DNA from: Methanomicrobiales archaeon HGW-Methanomicrobiales-2
GTDB lineage: Archaea; Halobacteriota; Methanomicrobia; Methanomicrobiales; Methanoculleaceae
DNA: 39,278 nucleotides
NCBI GenBank assembly: GCA_002839645.1
Contig: PGYL01000035.1
Coordinates: forward strand, 1 to 39,278
Reading direction: 5' to 3'
The notes beneath the pieces were generated by a model, which was not told the DNA's origin, made no database searches, and worked only from the letters and a program-made list of their open reading frames with translations. The position numbers and the translations under genes were made by a program. Below are positions 2,865 through 24,195 of this stretch, piece after piece; the first letter of the stretch is position 1, and each line of letters opens with the position of its first letter.

Positions 2865-3392
2865 GTGTGCGGGGTCCGCCTCTTCCTCCTGATGGCTTTC
2901 TCCGCTCTCCTCATCATGCCCTGCTCCGTCTCGGGCGCGACGCCCCCGCTGCCCCCTCTCCTCACGGTCTCGGTATCGAACGATACCCTCTCCCCCGGGG
3001 AGAACCTGAGCGTCTCCGCCACCTGGAGCCGGGACGAGAGCTTCTACCGCCCCCCACAGAGCGTCGACGTGCAGATCTACAGCGTCCCCGGAGGGTCGTT
3101 CGTCGCAGGGTATACGGTCCCGGAGGATGAACGCGCGGTCTTTGACGGTGACACCCGGCACTTTCGGGGGGTGATTGCCTCCTCGGAGCTGCCGGCGGGG
3201 AGGCTCCTCCTCGTCGTCGTCGACCCGGTCTCCGGCGCCGACGCCCGGGTCCCGATAAACGTCACGGAGCCTGGCCCGGATTTCCCCAAAATCCAGGTGC
3301 AGGGATATCTCGATGCCGTCTTCTTCCTGGTTGTGGGGGTCCTGCTGGTCGTCCTCGGCGCCGGTCTCGTCCTGCTGCTCAGGCGCCCGTGA
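2865..3392 (+). CDS. Exported, C-terminally membrane-anchored surface protein
   Basis: A 175-residue protein with an N-terminal signal segment (LFLLMAFSALLIMPCSVSGA, cleavage probably after SGA near residue 25), a beta-rich extracellular region of about 115 residues and a C-terminal hydrophobic helix (DAVFFLVVGVLLVVLGAGLVLLL) followed by RRP. The middle, with LTVSVSNDTLSPGENLSVSATW and a later NVTEPG, looks like one Ig-like or CARDB-like beta-sandwich with N-glycosylation sequons, as in many methanogen envelope proteins. The GTG start at 2865 is preceded by AAAAGGT at a suitable distance. A terminator follows at 3453. The binding partner is unknown; it has no operon partner. Confidence 0.75.
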   Translation: MCGVRLFLLMAFSALLIMPCSVSGATPPLPPLLTVSVSNDTLSPGENLSVSATWSRDESFYRPPQSVDVQIYSVPGGSFVAGYTVPEDERAVFDGDTRHFRGVIASSELPAGRLLLVVVDPVSGADARVPINVTEPGPDFPKIQVQGYLDAVFFLVVGVLLVVLGAGLVLLLRRP

Positions 3393-3452
3393 GGTGGGGG
3401 AGGAGACGGCCCGCCTCACGGCAGCCTGCACGCCGCGGGATCCCTGCCCGGG

Positions 3453-3487: not shown

Positions 3488-3497
3488 GTCACCGGTT

Positions 3498-3507: not shown

Positions 3508-3531
3508 CTGCAGCAACCAACTATTCTTCAA

Positions 3532-6180
3532 GTGATACCTGAACCGGCAGCAAAAAAGTTCCTCTACTGGTGCGACCAGTGCAACGTCCCGCTCATCGGG
3601 CGCACCTGCGCCTGCAAAACCAGAGTCAGGGAGATACCTCTCCTTCAGCCGCACGACGTCCGCCCTGCCCTCGCGGCGGATATGGCCCTGATCCGGCGCC
3701 TTCTTGCCGAACAGTTCGGCGATATCCCCCTGCCCCACGTCGTGCTCTTAAACAAGACCGGCGGCGTCGACCGGGCGGACCTCGTCATCATGCACGGCGA
3801 CCGGTTCGGCTGGCTCTCGTTCGACCCGATCGCCCGGAAGTTCAGCCTCGATATCGCCCCCGAAGCGCTCCCGTACATCCTGCAGCACGCAACCCGGGGC
3901 ATCATTGACCTTGAGGCCGAGCCCGCCGTGAGCGCCCATAAGGGCCGTATCGGTGGGAAACGATTCTCCCTGGCGACCGCCGTCCCCGACGGAACGGTCA
4001 TCGTCTCCTATAAGAACCGGTTCGGGACCGGCGTCGTCAAGGACGGGCAGGTCAGGGTGAAGGAACTCGTCTCTGTTGCGCCCCGCACCCGGCCCGACCC
4101 GGACTGGGACGTGGTGATCGAGAAGAACCGCTACCACTTAAAAAACCTCGAGCGCAACGCCGTCCGCACCATCAAGAAGCACATGAACGACCGGCCGTGC
4201 GTGAACGTCTCGTTCTCCGGCGGCAAGGACAGCACCGCCGTCCTCCACCTCGCCCGGAAGGCGGGGGTGGAGAAGGCGTTCTTCATCGATACCGGTATCG
4301 AGCTCCCCGAGACGGTGGCGTTCGTGGAGTCGGAAGGCGTCGAGATCGTCCGGAAAGGCGGCGACTTCTTCCAGGCGGTCGAGAAGGTGGGGCCACCGGG
4401 CAAAGACCACCGCTGGTGCTGCAAGCTCCTCAAGCTTCATCCTTTAAAGCTCTACCTCGCCGAGCTCGGTCCCTGTGTCACCATCCAGGGGAACCGCTGG
4501 TACGAGTCCTGGAACCGCGCCGACCTCGACGAGACGAGCCAGAACCCGGCAAACCCCTTGCAGTTGAACGTCTCGCCGATCCGGAACTGGCGGGCGCTCG
4601 AGGTCTTCCTCTACCTCTGGTGGCAGAAGGCCCCCATGAACCCGCTCTACGAGAAAGGCCTTGAGCGGATAGGCTGTTACCTCTGCCCGGCGGTGCTCGA
4701 GAGCGAGTACGAAGGGCTCCGGGAGATGCACCCGGAACTGACGGGACGCTGGGACGAATTTCTGGTCAGGTGGGGGGAGAAGACCGGGATGCCGGACGCC
4801 TACCACCAGTGGGGGCTCTGGCGGTGGCGGGCGCTGCCCCCGAAGATGCGCGAAGTCTGCAGGGACCGGGGCATCGCTGTGAACGAGGACTTCACCCTGC
4901 AGGAAGCCCCGGAGAGCCGGACTACCCCGGCCCAGAAGATCGTGGAGATGGCAGCAACGAAGACTCTAAAAACCCCTGAACCGGCAGGAAACGAGTTTAC
5001 CCCCGACGAGATCCGGGAGGACTTCCCGATCCTCGGCGACATCATCTATCTGGACAACGCCGCGACGAGTTTCTCGCCGGAGCCGGTGGTGGAGGCACTC
5101 GTCGAGTTCGAGCACCGCTACCGGGCCAACGTCGGGCGGGGCGTTCACCGCCTGACCCGGATCGCGTCGCAGCGCTACTGGCATGCCCACGAGAAGGTGG
5201 CCCGGTTCATCGGCGGCGAGGCGGGGGGCACGGTCTTTACGAAGAACGCCACGGAATCGATCAACATGGTCGCGCAGGGCCTCTCCTGGAAGCCGGGCGA
5301 CCGCGTGGTGACCACCATTCTCGAGCACCACTCAAACCTTCTCCCCTGGAGAACGCTTGAAAAACAGGGCGTCGCGCTCGACGTGATCGGGATCGACGCC
5401 GACTACTCGCTCGACCTTGCCGCGCTCGAGGAAGCTCTGGCCGGAGGCAGCGTCCGGCTCGTCGCCGTCACCCATGCCTCGAACGTCCTCGGCGTGACGA
5501 CGCCGATCCCCGAGATCGTCCGGCTCTGCCGGAAGCACGGCGCCCTCCTTCTTGTGGACGCCGCACAGTCGCTCCCGCACATGCCGGTGAATGTAGCGGA
5601 CCTCGGCTGCGACTTCCTCTGCTTCTCGGGGCACAAACTGTTCGGGCCGACCGGGACCGGCGTCCTCTGGATGCGGGATCTCCTCCTTGAACCGTCGGTC
5701 CTCGGCGGCGGCATGGTCACGAGCGTGACGGCGGAGGGGTATGTGCCGGCAGAGGGCTACCAGCGCTACGAGGCCGGGACGCCGAGCGTCGGCGGCGGGA
5801 TCGCGCTCGGCGTCGCCGTGGACTATCTCTCGGTGATCGGGATGGAGAAGATCCACCGGCACGAAGAGCGCCTGACCGCCCGGCTGATCGCGGGGCTCTC
5901 CCGGGTCGACGGAGTCACCGTCTACGCTGCGAGAACGCCCGAGGCCCGGATCGGGGTCGTTTCGTTCACCATCGACGGCGTCCACCCGCAGGAGGCCGCG
6001 CAGATGCTCGACGAGGAAGCGGATATCCTGGTACGGTCGGGGCACCACTGCTGCCAGCCGCTCATGGATTACCTGAACCTCCCTGAGGGGACGGTCCGGG
6101 CGAGTCTTGCAGCCTACACGACGGAGCACGAGATCGACCTCCTCATCGCGGCCGTCGGCGAGATCAGCCGGGGCCGGTAA
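3532..6180 (+). CDS. Fusion: zinc-ribbon / PAPS-reductase-like ATP pyrophosphatase / class V cysteine desulfurase
   Basis: An 882-residue fusion if GTG 3532 is the start; the frame is open upstream but crosses a terminator, so the earlier ATG at 3313 is unlikely. Residues 1-30 carry CDQC (C14, C17) and CAC (C26, C28), a zinc-ribbon; about 35-200 is a PUA-like/uncharacterised region; the adenine-nucleotide alpha-hydrolase domain has the P-loop SGGKDS (229-234), RWCCK (C296, C297) and CYLC (C382, C385), suggesting a bound Zn or Fe-S cluster. Residues 489-882 are a SufS-like cysteine desulfurase: SGHKLFG with the PLP lysine K702 and SGHHCCQP with catalytic C840. The desulfurase makes a persulfide from cysteine; the ATP-dependent domain could activate a target for sulfur insertion. 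True PAPS reduction is unlikely given the fusion. The gene converges on fdhD, a sulfurtransferase needing a desulfurase, so a functional link is inferred. tRNA thiolation is the main alternative. Confidence 0.85.
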   Translation: MIPEPAAKKFLYWCDQCNVPLIGRTCACKTRVREIPLLQPHDVRPALAADMALIRRLLAEQFGDIPLPHVVLLNKTGGVDRADLVIMHGDRFGWLSFDPIARKFSLDIAPEALPYILQHATRGIIDLEAEPAVSAHKGRIGGKRFSLATAVPDGTVIVSYKNRFGTGVVKDGQVRVKELVSVAPRTRPDPDWDVVIEKNRYHLKNLERNAVRTIKKHMNDRPCVNVSFSGGKDSTAVLHLARKAGVEKAFFIDTGIELPETVAFVESEGVEIVRKGGDFFQAVEKVGPPGKDHRWCCKLLKLHPLKLYLAELGPCVTIQGNRWYESWNRADLDETSQNPANPLQLNVSPIRNWRALEVFLYLWWQKAPMNPLYEKGLERIGCYLCPAVLESEYEGLREMHPELTGRWDEFLVRWGEKTGMPDAYHQWGLWRWRALPPKMREVCRDRGIAVNEDFTLQEAPESRTTPAQKIVEMAATKTLKTPEPAGNEFTPDEIREDFPILGDIIYLDNAATSFSPEPVVEALVEFEHRYRANVGRGVHRLTRIASQRYWHAHEKVARFIGGEAGGTVFTKNATESINMVAQGLSWKPGDRVVTTILEHHSNLLPWRTLEKQGVALDVIGIDADYSLDLAALEEALAGGSVRLVAVTHASNVLGVTTPIPEIVRLCRKHGALLLVDAAQSLPHMPVNVADLGCDFLCFSGHKLFGPTGTGVLWMRDLLLEPSVLGGGMVTSVTAEGYVPAEGYQRYEAGTPSVGGGIALGVAVDYLSVIGMEKIHRHEERLTARLIAGLSRVDGVTVYAARTPEARIGVVSFTIDGVHPQEAAQMLDEEADILVRSGHHCCQPLMDYLNLPEGTVRASLAAYTTEHEIDLLIAAVGEISRGR

Positions 6181-17089: not shown

Positions 17090-18733
17090 TCAGTATGAGG
17101 CGACGATATTTCCGTCCTCATCGAGGAGGTCGTACGGGCCCCCGTCAGGGGGGAACATCCACCGGCCCTCGCCGGGCAGTGCCTGCATAAAGAAGAGCAG
17201 GTCGGCGCCTGTCGCGTCGGAGAGGACCAGATGGTTGCCCTCCACCCGGTAGGACGAGACGCTCGGGAGGAGGTTGAGATACGTGCTCTCCTGCTCCATG
17301 ACGCCCTCCGGGTCGTTGCAGTACATCTTCGTGCTGATGGGCGGTTCGATGGTGATCTTCGTGCCGTCGAGCACGTAGCCGGCCCCGTAGGAGTTGCACC
17401 CGGCGTTCCCGGTGACCCTGCCCTCCGATGAGAATGTCGCGGTGACTGTGGTCCCGGCGATCACCGAGGAGACCGTCTCCCCATTCAGGCTGGAGGACTC
17501 AAGCGTCCACTCCGTCCCGGCGAGCGGGGCCGGCGGGACCTCCTCGGCCTGCACGAAGAAGAGCAGGTCGGTGCCTGTCTCGTCCGTGAGGACCAGGCGG
17601 TCGTCCTCGACCCGGTAGGAGGTGGCATTTCCGAGGAGGGCGAGGTAGGCGCTCTCCTGTCGCATGACGCCCGGCGTCTCGCAGTACATCAGGGTGTTAA
17701 AGAGGGTGGAGACCGAGAGGGTCGTGCCGTCGAGGGTGTACCGGCCGCCGTAGTGGTTGCACCCGGCGTTGCCGCCGACGTTCCCGTCAGGTCCGAAGGT
17801 CACGGTGACGGCCGCCCCCGCAATCACCGAGGAGATCGCGTCCCCTCCGGTAGCGTAGCTGTCAAGCACCCAGTCCGTCCCGACGAGCGGGAGGTCGGGC
17901 GTTTGTGCGGCTTTCTCGAAGACCAGGAGGTCGGCACCCTCGCTGTCGGCGAGGATCAGCCGGTCATCCTCAATCCGGTAGGAGGCGACCTGGGCGAGGA
18001 GTGCAAGGTAGCGGTCCTCCTGCTTCATGATACCCGGCGGTTCGCTGCAGTACATCTCGGTCCTGACGGCCGGCTCGATGGTGAGGAACGCGGCGTCCAC
18101 GGTGTAGCCCGCACCGTAGTGGTTGCACCCGGCCGACCCGCCGACGTTGCCGTCAGCGTCGAAGACCATCGTGACGGCTGTGCCGGTAAGAACCGGTATC
18201 ATAGCGCCGCCCTCGTCGGAGAGGCTTGTGAGCGTCCAGGACGTCCCGGCGAGCGCCGCGGCCGCGGGTCCCTTCACGAAGACGAGCACGTCGGTGCCTT
18301 CCGCGTCGGTGATGATGAGTCGGTCATCCTCGATCCGGCATTCTGCCGCAGAGCCGAGGAGGTCCATGAATCTTGCCTCCTGCTCCATGATGCCCTCGGG
18401 CTCCGTGCAGAGTTTCAGCGTCTGGACAAGCGAGGAGACCGAGAGGGTCGTGCCGTCGAGCCGGTAGTCGCCGCCGTAACCGTTGCACCCGGCGGAGCCC
18501 GTGACCTTGCCGTCAGGGCCGAAGGCCGCCGTGATCTCCGTTCCCGGCAGGACCGGAACGAGCGTGCCGTTCCCGGCGAGGTAGGAGTCGAGGGACCAGG
18601 AGGGCCCCGCAACCGCACCGGGCGTCGACGTGCTCGCCGTGCATCCTGCGGTGATGATTGCCGCCACAACGATGACGAGCAGTGACGCCGTCGCGAGGAT
18701 GTAGTTTCTGTTCCTTCTTCTGTTCGGTGCCAT
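17090..18733 (-). CDS. Exported lipoprotein-like protein with four META (HslJ-like) domains
   Basis: A 547-residue protein. The frame is open to 18976, but MAPNRRRNRNYILATASLL at 18733 begins a clean signal segment (LLVIVVAAIITAGC) ending in a lipobox-like TAGC, so that ATG is chosen. Four META repeats follow at about 45-155, 160-270, 275-385 and 390-500, each with an opening (A/V)GT.W.L, an (S/G)(S/N)AGCN.YG motif, a second cysteine in K(L/M).C or MYC, a (G/R)(I/V)M.QE...L.LL helix and a closing D-R-L...D..G.D-L-L-F strand pair. The regular Cys pair in each repeat suggests one disulfide per domain, fitting an extracellular location. The C-terminal 45 residues are acidic and proline-rich. Function unknown. 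A TATA box at 18761-18770 suggests a short leader. Confidence 0.88.
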   Translation of the reverse strand: MAPNRRRNRNYILATASLLVIVVAAIITAGCTASTSTPGAVAGPSWSLDSYLAGNGTLVPVLPGTEITAAFGPDGKVTGSAGCNGYGGDYRLDGTTLSVSSLVQTLKLCTEPEGIMEQEARFMDLLGSAAECRIEDDRLIITDAEGTDVLVFVKGPAAAALAGTSWTLTSLSDEGGAMIPVLTGTAVTMVFDADGNVGGSAGCNHYGAGYTVDAAFLTIEPAVRTEMYCSEPPGIMKQEDRYLALLAQVASYRIEDDRLILADSEGADLLVFEKAAQTPDLPLVGTDWVLDSYATGGDAISSVIAGAAVTVTFGPDGNVGGNAGCNHYGGRYTLDGTTLSVSTLFNTLMYCETPGVMRQESAYLALLGNATSYRVEDDRLVLTDETGTDLLFFVQAEEVPPAPLAGTEWTLESSSLNGETVSSVIAGTTVTATFSSEGRVTGNAGCNSYGAGYVLDGTKITIEPPISTKMYCNDPEGVMEQESTYLNLLPSVSSYRVEGNHLVLSDATGADLLFFMQALPGEGRWMFPPDGGPYDLLDEDGNIVASY

Positions 18734-21957: not shown

Positions 21958-22035
21958 GTAACGCAAATGTTACGCCCTCCCCTGCATTGTTACAGTTTTG
22001 TAACAATTGCCGCCCATCCGTAACAAAACTGTAAC
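21958..22035. promoter_or_regulatory. Array of six GTWAC half-sites in three 31-bp-spaced pairs
   Basis: GTAAC or its complement GTTAC occurs at 21958, 21969, 21989, 22000, 22020 and 22031: intervals 11, 20, 11, 20, 11. The pairs read TGTAACGCAAATGTTACG, TGTTACAGTTTTGTAACA and CGTAACAAAACTGTAACA. The last pair abuts the TATA box of the downstream small gene. This regularity (one turn within pairs, three turns between pairs) is that of a cooperative operator bound by an oligomeric protein. Confidence 0.8.
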
Positions 22036-22036
22036 A

Positions 22037-22044
22037 ATTAAATC
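22037..22044 (+). promoter_or_regulatory. TATA box of the small gene at 22067
   Basis: ATTAAATC is centred 26 nt before ATG 22067, which puts the transcript start on the start codon. It directly follows the sixth GTWAC half-site. Confidence 0.55.
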
Positions 22045-22066: not shown

Positions 22067-22264
22067 ATGTCCAGAGTCGTCCGGGTCGATGAGGAGGCGC
22101 TGGAGGTCGCCCTCAAGTACGGGAAGAACCTCTCGCTCGGGATCATGAAAATGGAGGAACTGCTCCAGAAGCAGGAGAAGGCGAAGCGCGACTACACCGC
22201 CATCGAGGAGATGGTCCGCCGGACGATTCGCGAGGAACTCGAGGGGCTGACTTCCAGATATTGA
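22067..22264 (+). CDS. Small protein, possible ribbon-helix-helix regulator with coiled coil
   Basis: A 65-residue protein beginning MSRVVRVDEEALEVALKYGK. The opening alternates like the DNA-binding beta strand of ribbon-helix-helix (RHH) proteins (RVVRVDEE), followed by a helix (ALEVALKYG), a turn (KNLSLG) and a long charged helix (IMKMEELLQKQEKAKRDYTAIEEMVRRTIREELEGL) with heptad-like spacing. RHH identity is my inference; no family was recognised with certainty. ATG 22067 is chosen because a TATA box sits at leaderless distance, though TTG 22007 is in frame. The six-half-site array directly upstream suggests autoregulation by this protein or control by another one. No partner toxin gene is adjacent. 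Confidence 0.65.
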   Translation: MSRVVRVDEEALEVALKYGKNLSLGIMKMEELLQKQEKAKRDYTAIEEMVRRTIREELEGLTSRY

Positions 22265-22411
22265 TCCAGATGGCGGCCTCAAAAGCAACCCAGTAGAAGG
22301 GGTGCTCCTGCTCTTTGACTTCTGGACTCCGGAGAGACCATCAAGTAGGTCGTGTTGTCCCAGAACATGGAAACTAGCGTGTTTCCGAGAGTGCCCGATA
22401 CACTGGACCGC

Positions 22412-22567
22412 GGGGATATCGCCACTGGGGGAGGCGGCTCGCGGGGAGGGGGCATGCCCCCTCCCCTATCTGCACCTCATATGAGGATGGTTGTAACCCC
22501 ACCCCACCCGGCCTTCGGCCTCCTCCCCCGCCCCCTGAGGGGGCGGGGGCAGTGCGTGGCGATAAGC
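22412..22567 (+). repeat. Dispersed structured element, complete copy
   Basis: A 156-bp unit bounded by GGGGATATCGCCAC (22412-22425) and GTGGCGATAAGC (22556-22567), which are imperfect terminal inverted repeats. Inside are three hairpins: GGGGAGGGGGC / GCCCCCTCCCC (22443-22466, loop AT), GGCCTTCGGCC (22510-22520), and CCCCCGCCCCC / GGGGGCGGGGG (22525-22549, loop TGA). It lies between the small regulator gene and malQ; flanks 22265-22411 and 22568-22695 hold no gene I recognise, apart from a tail GAGCTCAAGCACTGTC shared with other copies. Confidence 0.8.
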
Positions 22568-22695
22568 GACGTTCCGGTAAGAACGGAGCTCAAGCACTGT
22601 CAGGTGCGTAGCCCGATGGAAATCCGTGCTCTGGAGCAACTCTGGGCAAGGCCATCTAGAGGATCGTCCAGCGTTAAGATTCCAGGACCACCGAC

Positions 22696-24195
22696 TTACC
22701 CCCGCCCGGAGAGTTCCGTAAGCCCCCGGAGCCAGTCGAACGGAGCACTGGCAAACTCACGGGGCGTCATCCGCCACACCCAGTTCCCTTCCGCCGTCGA
22801 GGGGTAGTTCATCCGCGCCGCGGCGCCGAGGCCGAGGAGGTCCTGCATGGGGATGACGCTTACCCGGGCAACCGATCTCATCGCGAGAAGGATGAGTTCC
22901 CGGTGGACCTCGCCCGCCGCCACCTCCCTTCCCGCGTAAGCAAAGAACCGCTGCCTATCCTCGACTGACGCCTCCTCCTCAAACCACCCCCGGGCCGTGT
23001 TGTTGTCGTGCGTCCCCGTGTAGCAGATGAGGTTCGGGATATAATTGTGGGGGATGTGGGCGCTCTTCTCGATCCCCTCACCGAACGCGAAGAGCAGGAT
23101 CTTCATTCCCGGGAAATCGAACCGGTCCAGGAGTTCCTGGACCGCCGGGGTGTTCGCCCCCAGGTCCTCGGCGACGATGGCAAAGCAGGGGAACCGCCGG
23201 GAGAGCGCCTCGAAGAACTCCGCTCCCGGTCCGTCGACCCAGGTGCCGTGCTCGGCGGTCGTATCGCCCGCCGGGACCTCGTAGTAGTCGGCGAACGCCC
23301 GGAAGTGATCGATCCGGAAGAGGTCGTAGAGTTCGCCGGAGCGGGCGAGCCGGCCCGCCCACCAGTCGTAACCCCGCTCCCGGAGCGCCGGCCAGTCGTA
23401 GACCGGGTTCCCCCAGAGCTGCCCGGTCCTGCTGAACATATCGGGAGGCACGCCCGCCACCACGGTAGGGCGGAGGTCTTCGTCCAGCTGGAAGATTCCG
23501 GGGTTTGCCCAGACATCGACGCTGTCGTATGCGACGTAGATCGGGATGTCGCCGATCACCTGGATGCGCCGGTCGGTGCAGTAGCGGCGGAGGGCCGACC
23601 ACTGCCGGGCGGCGAGGTACTGGAGGTACTTCTCTTTCTGGATCTTATCGGCGAGGCTCCGGCGCATCTCGTCGAGGGCCTCCGGTTGCCGGGTGCGGAC
23701 CTCCTCCGGCCACTCTCTCCACTCCTGGCCGTGGAAGCGGTCCTTGAGCGCAACGAAGAGCGCGTGGTCGTCGAGCCACCACCCCGCCCCGGTAGAGAAC
23801 GCTTCATACTCGTGTTCCGGTCCCGAATGGCGAAACCGCTCGTACGCAAGCGCAAAGAGCCGTTCCCGGTACCAGGCAGCCGCCTCGCAGGCAACCCGCT
23901 CCTCTGGAAAATCGGGCGCCGATTCGAGGTCGTTCTTCCTGAGGACCCCCTCCCGGACAAGCATCTCCGGGCTGATCAGGAGGGTGTTCATCGCAAACGC
24001 CGAAGGGCTGCTGTAGGGAGAATTGCCGCACGCCGTGCATGTCGGGTTGAGCGGCAGGACCTGCCAGTAGTGCTGCCGGGCTCGCTCAAGCGCCTCGACG
24101 AACCGGTATGCCGACGGGCCGAAGTCGCCGATGCCGTACGCCGACGGCAGGGACGTGATATGCAGGAGTATGCCGCTTCCCCGTGCGTGGATCAT
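22696..24195 (-). CDS. malQ: 4-alpha-glucanotransferase (GH77, amylomaltase)
   Basis: A 499-residue glycoside hydrolase family 77 enzyme that moves alpha-1,4-glucan segments between maltodextrins. Motifs: RGSGILLHITSLPSAYGIGDFGPSAYRFVE at the start, WQVLPLNPT and SPYSSPSAFAMNTLLIS near 45-75, IGDIPIYVAYDSVDVWANP near 215-233, RIDHFRAFADYYEVPAG (the nucleophile region) near 295-311, IVAEDLGANTPAVQELLDRFDFPGMKIL near 340-367 with the acid/base Glu-Asp, and YTGTHDNNTARGW near 394. Length is that of single-domain amylomaltases. AGAGGAGAT precedes ATG 24195. It probably serves glycogen turnover, linking with the gpmA and gap genes nearby. Convergent with the small regulator gene. Confidence 0.95.
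   Translation of the reverse strand: MIHARGSGILLHITSLPSAYGIGDFGPSAYRFVEALERARQHYWQVLPLNPTCTACGNSPYSSPSAFAMNTLLISPEMLVREGVLRKNDLESAPDFPEERVACEAAAWYRERLFALAYERFRHSGPEHEYEAFSTGAGWWLDDHALFVALKDRFHGQEWREWPEEVRTRQPEALDEMRRSLADKIQKEKYLQYLAARQWSALRRYCTDRRIQVIGDIPIYVAYDSVDVWANPGIFQLDEDLRPTVVAGVPPDMFSRTGQLWGNPVYDWPALRERGYDWWAGRLARSGELYDLFRIDHFRAFADYYEVPAGDTTAEHGTWVDGPGAEFFEALSRRFPCFAIVAEDLGANTPAVQELLDRFDFPGMKILLFAFGEGIEKSAHIPHNYIPNLICYTGTHDNNTARGWFEEEASVEDRQRFFAYAGREVAAGEVHRELILLAMRSVARVSVIPMQDLLGLGAAARMNYPSTAEGNWVWRMTPREFASAPFDWLRGLTELSGRG

Follow-up and report, generated by a model that had tools for sequence, protein, structure and literature searches.

The window analysed here (the whole stretch of DNA, 39,278 nt in length) contains a short gene for a 65-aa protein, predicted to be leaderless because a TATA-like element (AATTAAATC) is centred about 26 bp before its ATG at 22067, and the DNA upstream of this element carries six copies of the word GTWAC arranged as three pairs (Table 1). 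In the window's genus no gene on the same strand follows the small gene, and the neighbouring gene, encoding a 4-alpha-glucanotransferase, is convergent. The 430-bp spacer between the two is without a clear gene and contains a G+C-rich inverted repeat; a search for RNA elements gave only sub-threshold chance matches to Rfam families, and these fall in this spacer, downstream of the small gene. On the opposite strand the window also encodes a predicted secreted protein with four META domains (four stretches matching Pfam META), and META-like proteins are found near the small gene in two further genomes as well (G013 and G037).

Table 1. Features of the window and arrays found away from the promoter of the small gene in other genomes (the latter with positions in the loci named).
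Feature	Location	Position	Strand	Remarks
Putative operator pair 1, GTAAC-N6-GTTAC	window	21958-21973	.	half-sites 21958-21962 and 21969-21973; kept in orthologues of the window's genus (g1)
Putative operator pair 2, GTTAC-N6-GTAAC	window	21989-22004	.	half-sites 21989-21993 and 22000-22004; kept in orthologues
Putative operator pair 3, GTAAC-N6-GTAAC	window	22020-22035	.	half-sites 22020-22024 and 22031-22035; TATA-adjacent
TATA-like element AATTAAATC	window	22036-22044	+	BRE expected directly upstream
65-aa protein P0001	window	22067-22264	+	leaderless start predicted; may be a ribbon-helix-helix regulator; in no Pfam/NCBIfam family
Spacer to 4-alpha-glucanotransferase gene	window	22264-22696
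G+C-rich inverted repeat	window	near 22522-22549		inside the spacer
Predicted secreted protein, four META domains	window	17093-18733	-
Relocated array, genus g19	L156 (G105)	3218-3263
Relocated array, genus g19	L157 (G107)	4913-4958
Second array, genus g23	L153 (G121)	near 3421
Second array, genus g23	L154 (G122)	near 3594
Second array, genus g23	L155 (G123)	near 3491
Six-site array, separate contig	L152 (G116)	3516-3600		near contig end

The preliminary description of this DNA had listed the six half-sites with steps of 11, 20, 11, 20 and 11 bp between their starts, and all of these coordinates proved exact: pairs with a pitch of 11 bp recur every 31 bp, and the last half-site abuts the TATA box of the 65-aa gene. 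Since this half-site stands directly before AATTAAATC, it overlaps the expected position of the BRE. The single word GTWAC is at background level in the window (36 occurrences, 34.8 expected), and the pair GTWAC-N6-GTWAC occurs three times with 0.06 expected, a count that was reached in no shuffle; even four in-register sites were seen in 0 of 200,000 shuffled promoters. Elsewhere in the 2.78-Mb genome there are only three such pairs, two of them inside long open frames, and the reversed control pattern occurs twice. When a four-site pattern was sought across the whole genome with up to 3 mismatches allowed, it returned this promoter and one place with 3 mismatches (the control count was equally one), and no other multi-pair array was found beyond that one weak place. 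The spacing of the array is thus not scattered at random, either across this genome or in genomes that lack the small gene.

Alignment of orthologous promoters recovered GTWAC half-sites with matching spacing. Within the window's genus, 29 gene copies were read, of which 24 have six exact sites and five have five, all in register, and the spacers between the pairs have diverged across the genus while the sites were kept. The pitch within a pair is 11 bp in this genus (10 bp in some pairs of a few species); families f3, f4 and f5 show 10 bp within and 20-23 bp between pairs, so that the period stays at 31-32 bp, i.e. three helical turns. At 32 of 40 distant homologue loci, nearly all from other families, there are at least three in-register sites; the loci below that number come from genera g19 and g22 and from two g21 genomes, and two g22 genomes have one exact site each in front of the gene itself. 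Four pairs are present in one f3 genome (G070). The TATA columns at -28 to -24 are highly conserved among 13 non-redundant promoters; as these were chosen for their array geometry, the perfect site columns in the same set arise by construction, and conservation of the sites is therefore judged from the unselected site counts given above. In two genomes, G023 (loci L025 and L034) and G028 (L009 and L033), the gene is present twice, on separate contigs, and an array accompanies each copy; because both assemblies are fragmented, these may reflect a mixture of strains rather than paralogy.

The flanking bases in orthologous arrays reveal, beyond what the preliminary description had noted, that GTWAC is the core of a longer near-palindrome, TGTWACA, with the inner A present in 148 and the inner T in 142 of 166 sites, and the outer T and outer A in 124 of 166 each. 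The central W is freely A or T between orthologues. Together, the near-palindrome and the free central base suggest a symmetric reader, that is, that each half-site is read by one two-fold symmetric module, or one protein dimer. The near-symmetric sub-sites are themselves arranged in tandem.

Close orthologues of the 65-aa protein are present in 28 of 40 genomes of the window's family, and the named records among close relatives are mostly Methanoculleus. A profile search over 232 genomes of the order found homologues in 77, belonging to four families (f1, f3, f4 and f5), and none in families f2 and f6. Outside the order none was found in 393 genomes sampled across the phylum, nor in plasmids, and none was confirmed in viral contigs. 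The gene that follows the small gene differs between families, being Asn_synthase-like in f3 and, directly after the small gene in most of f5, a metallophosphoesterase. A type II toxin-antitoxin operon was considered and rejected for want of a constant partner (none in the window's genus, and the two different genes just named in f3 and f5), and no toxin family was seen beside the small gene in the loci read.

Array and gene are inherited together, as would be expected of an autoregulatory operator and its regulator. Specifically, among genomes sampled evenly from the order, 54 of the 67 that have the gene also have the strict four-site pattern (N5 or N6), against 0 of the 58 that lack the gene (Fisher p = 4e-23, a value that is indicative only since it ignores shared ancestry). 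Within the window's own genus, species without the gene are without the array too; both are absent from three near-complete genomes of the genus (G027, G012 and G031), which suggests that they were lost jointly.

With the exception of three groups of cases, arrays are found at the promoter of the small gene itself. In genus g19 no array precedes the small gene; in G103, G105, G107 and G108 it is found instead in the interval to the following gene, where it stops 11-15 bp short of that gene's ATG (G104 has none). This following gene encodes a metallophosphoesterase by its sequence, and Pfam assigns the homologue in g20 to Metallophos_2. In genus g23 a second array is found at one conserved locus in three genomes, flanked by a gene for a small hydrophobic protein and by genes whose products are a 176-aa protein outside any Pfam family and a PAS/histidine-kinase-like protein, the PAS-type, sensor-like assignment having been made by inspection. 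In G116 the small gene is not preceded by an array, and one with six sites is located on a separate contig, downstream of an aminotransferase-like gene. These relocated and extra arrays argue for a trans-acting factor.

Two layouts of the array can be distinguished. One, found in the window's genus and in f3, has its pairs beginning at about -110, -79 and -47; the other, found in f4, f5 and G037 (a genome from another f1 genus), has them at about -78, -46 and -15. The offset is exactly one period (31-32 bp) in the downstream direction and brings the second layout over the start site. The pair at about -47/-36, with its second half-site at the expected BRE, is common to both layouts and is retained in most lineages, and the last pair of the second layout (-15/-5) reaches up to the start codon.

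The preliminary description held that the product of the small gene may be a ribbon-helix-helix (RHH) protein, and this assignment is plausible. AlphaFold2, given 32 diverse homologues, predicted an extended segment (residues 1-8) followed by two helices (9-18 and 22-64) with a pLDDT of 90; an earlier prediction from a shallow alignment of 20 close orthologues had given a single long, uninformative helix. V4 and R6 are invariant and lie on the same face of the predicted strand, as does the nearly invariant S2, with K/R3, V/I5 and I/V/L7 on the opposite face, and an invariant S23 is found at the start of the second helix. The order strand-helix-helix, together with V4, R6 and S23, fits an RHH monomer, but fold and profile searches recognise nothing, so that no family or fold similarity places the protein in the RHH (MetJ/Arc/CopG) class. 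Foldseek gave 0 matches against the PDB and nothing significant against a viral structure library, a profile search of the PDB gave no RHH match, scans of NCBIfam and PHROG gave nothing significant, and the best Pfam hit (RHH_1, E = 0.075, in one of 32 members) is below significance. Similarly, hhalign comparisons with six known RHH proteins (sequences typed from general knowledge) were not significant, although divergent sequences in so small a number do not allow a fair test. This lack of matches is compatible with an RHH fold, and the 65-aa protein is described here as RHH-like rather than as a proven member.

Because the array is kept across four families and occurs only in genomes with the gene, the small protein is most likely what binds there; and because the four-site pattern is found nowhere else in most genomes, this promoter appears to be the binder's only conserved target, as expected of an autoregulator. 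We consider it about 75% probable that the array serves as a cooperative operator for the protein of the adjoining gene, which would probably repress by blocking TFB/TBP or RNA polymerase. What the DNA itself shows is the geometry and its conservation, the confinement to gene-bearing genomes, the shift by one period and the copies that were moved or added; the identity of the binder, its RHH fold and the repression are inferred. Under this autoregulatory reading one symmetric dimer would read each 7-bp TGTWACA, two dimers one helical turn apart would make up a pair, and the three pairs, at 31-32 bp, would align on one face of the DNA. With enough protein the array would fill and the promoter would be shut: the TATA-adjacent pair would cover the BRE and exclude TFB/TBP, with the initiation region covered by an additional pair in other lineages. 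The gene would thereby keep its own level constant, and genes sharing its transcript or carrying a copy of the array would be controlled as well. The preliminary description had likewise proposed a cooperative, probably autoregulatory operator, which the co-occurrence supports well, but the word 'autoregulatory' is incomplete, as some genera use the array also, or instead, for other genes. Sites are missing from the gene's own promoter in g19 and in two g21 genomes, and two g22 genomes have just the one exact site, which counts against this reading; and in genomes of the Methanoculleus type the whole array is upstream of the TATA box, a possible position for an activator, which counts against repression.

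A different regulator might bind the array, with the small gene as its main target and the 65-aa protein as merely a regulated product. P0001 is, after all, a putative binder with a candidate fold, and the relocation of the array to the neighbouring gene in g19 would fit any trans-acting factor. However, the sample of 58 gene-free genomes contains no array, so that a foreign regulator would need to have come and gone with the gene in four families, and a single target in most genomes would be unusual for a separate regulator, which makes this possibility rather unlikely. Archaeal activators use positions upstream of the TATA box, which is where the three pairs lie in genus g1 and family f3; the protein might thus recruit TBP or TFB from upstream of the BRE/TATA in a positive feedback. 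This we regard as improbable, since the nearest half-site overlaps the BRE, since in f4, f5 and G037 a pair spans -15 to the start codon and would block initiation, and since the archaeal RHH factors covered by one review (PMC5569661) act as repressors, through promoter occlusion. Between autorepression and activation lies a composite view, of which we are doubtful: the protein would act upstream of the TATA box in some methanogens, possibly activating or tuning, and over the start site in others, repressing, its sign or mode having evolved as the operator slid by one period, and it would found a new archaeal DNA-binding family.

The occurrence of one array per genome, beside the gene for a putative small binding protein, also recalls plasmid partition loci, in which arrays bound by RHH centromere-binding proteins have a similar arrangement. 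A centromere- or partition-like site with autoregulation as a secondary effect is nevertheless very improbable, and was rejected: the loci read have no ParA-like neighbour, and in six closed genomes (G002, G004, G008, G063, G082 and G111) the array lies at 14-48% of the chromosome from the main orc1/cdc6, so that neither a nearby ParA-type ATPase nor a site close to the origin is found, while in g19 and g23 the arrays have shifted to other promoters. Chance, or passive inheritance of a functionless repeat, is extremely improbable. In its favour is the fact that nearby species share the region by descent; against it stand the three pairs and the shuffled promoters described above, the retention of sites amid diverging spacers and the re-positioning of the array by a whole period.

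Multi-site autoregulation by small RHH-type proteins is already known. Omega of pSM19035, CopG, Arc, MetJ and NikR are bacterial RHH autoregulators with tandem operators, and they share with the system proposed here short, roughly symmetric sub-sites that take up one dimer each, cooperative assembly and self-repression (here inferred). They differ in the spacing of the sub-sites (e.g. contiguous 7-bp repeats for omega), and the present array belongs to an archaeal promoter and to a protein that RHH profiles do not recognise. In methanogens, the operators of NrpR, a large nitrogen regulator with many targets, are of the type GGTA-N6-TACC, and thus also consist of two half-sites 6 bp apart near a promoter, but the half-site sequence is different, and the array described here is often of the N5 form and in most genomes occurs once, beside the 65-aa gene. 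A further comparison is with the archaeal viral RHH repressors SvtR, AvtR and F55, reviewed as acting by promoter occlusion (at the BRE/TATA or the start site) and cooperative spreading (PMC5569661). There, as in the proposal made here, a small archaeal protein is described as binding several sites in the promoter of its own gene; however, the motifs of SvtR and AvtR are imperfect inverted repeats and those of F55 tandem repeats of ATAGATAG, in place of TGTWACA pairs, the three repressors are viral, and the present array is chromosomal, rigid (three pairs at 31-32 bp) and order-wide. Profile searches detected no sequence similarity between the 65-aa protein and these three.

The preliminary description knew of no archaeal system with this layout, and a partial literature search likewise found none, nor any description of the protein family, the operator word or a rigid array of three pairs that spans an order and shifts by one period; no paper was found for the operator strings themselves. 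The putative regulator family appears to be undescribed, with a rigid operator that can be read from sequence alone across four families of one archaeal order. It would offer a conveniently small model from nature for the action of small cooperative repressors at archaeal TBP/TFB promoters, with a ready-made comparison in the two layouts one period apart and in the genera where the operator has been moved or copied elsewhere. The putative target genes (the metallophosphoesterase, the Asn-synthase-like enzyme and the signalling locus) may provide a first handle on the purpose of the protein.
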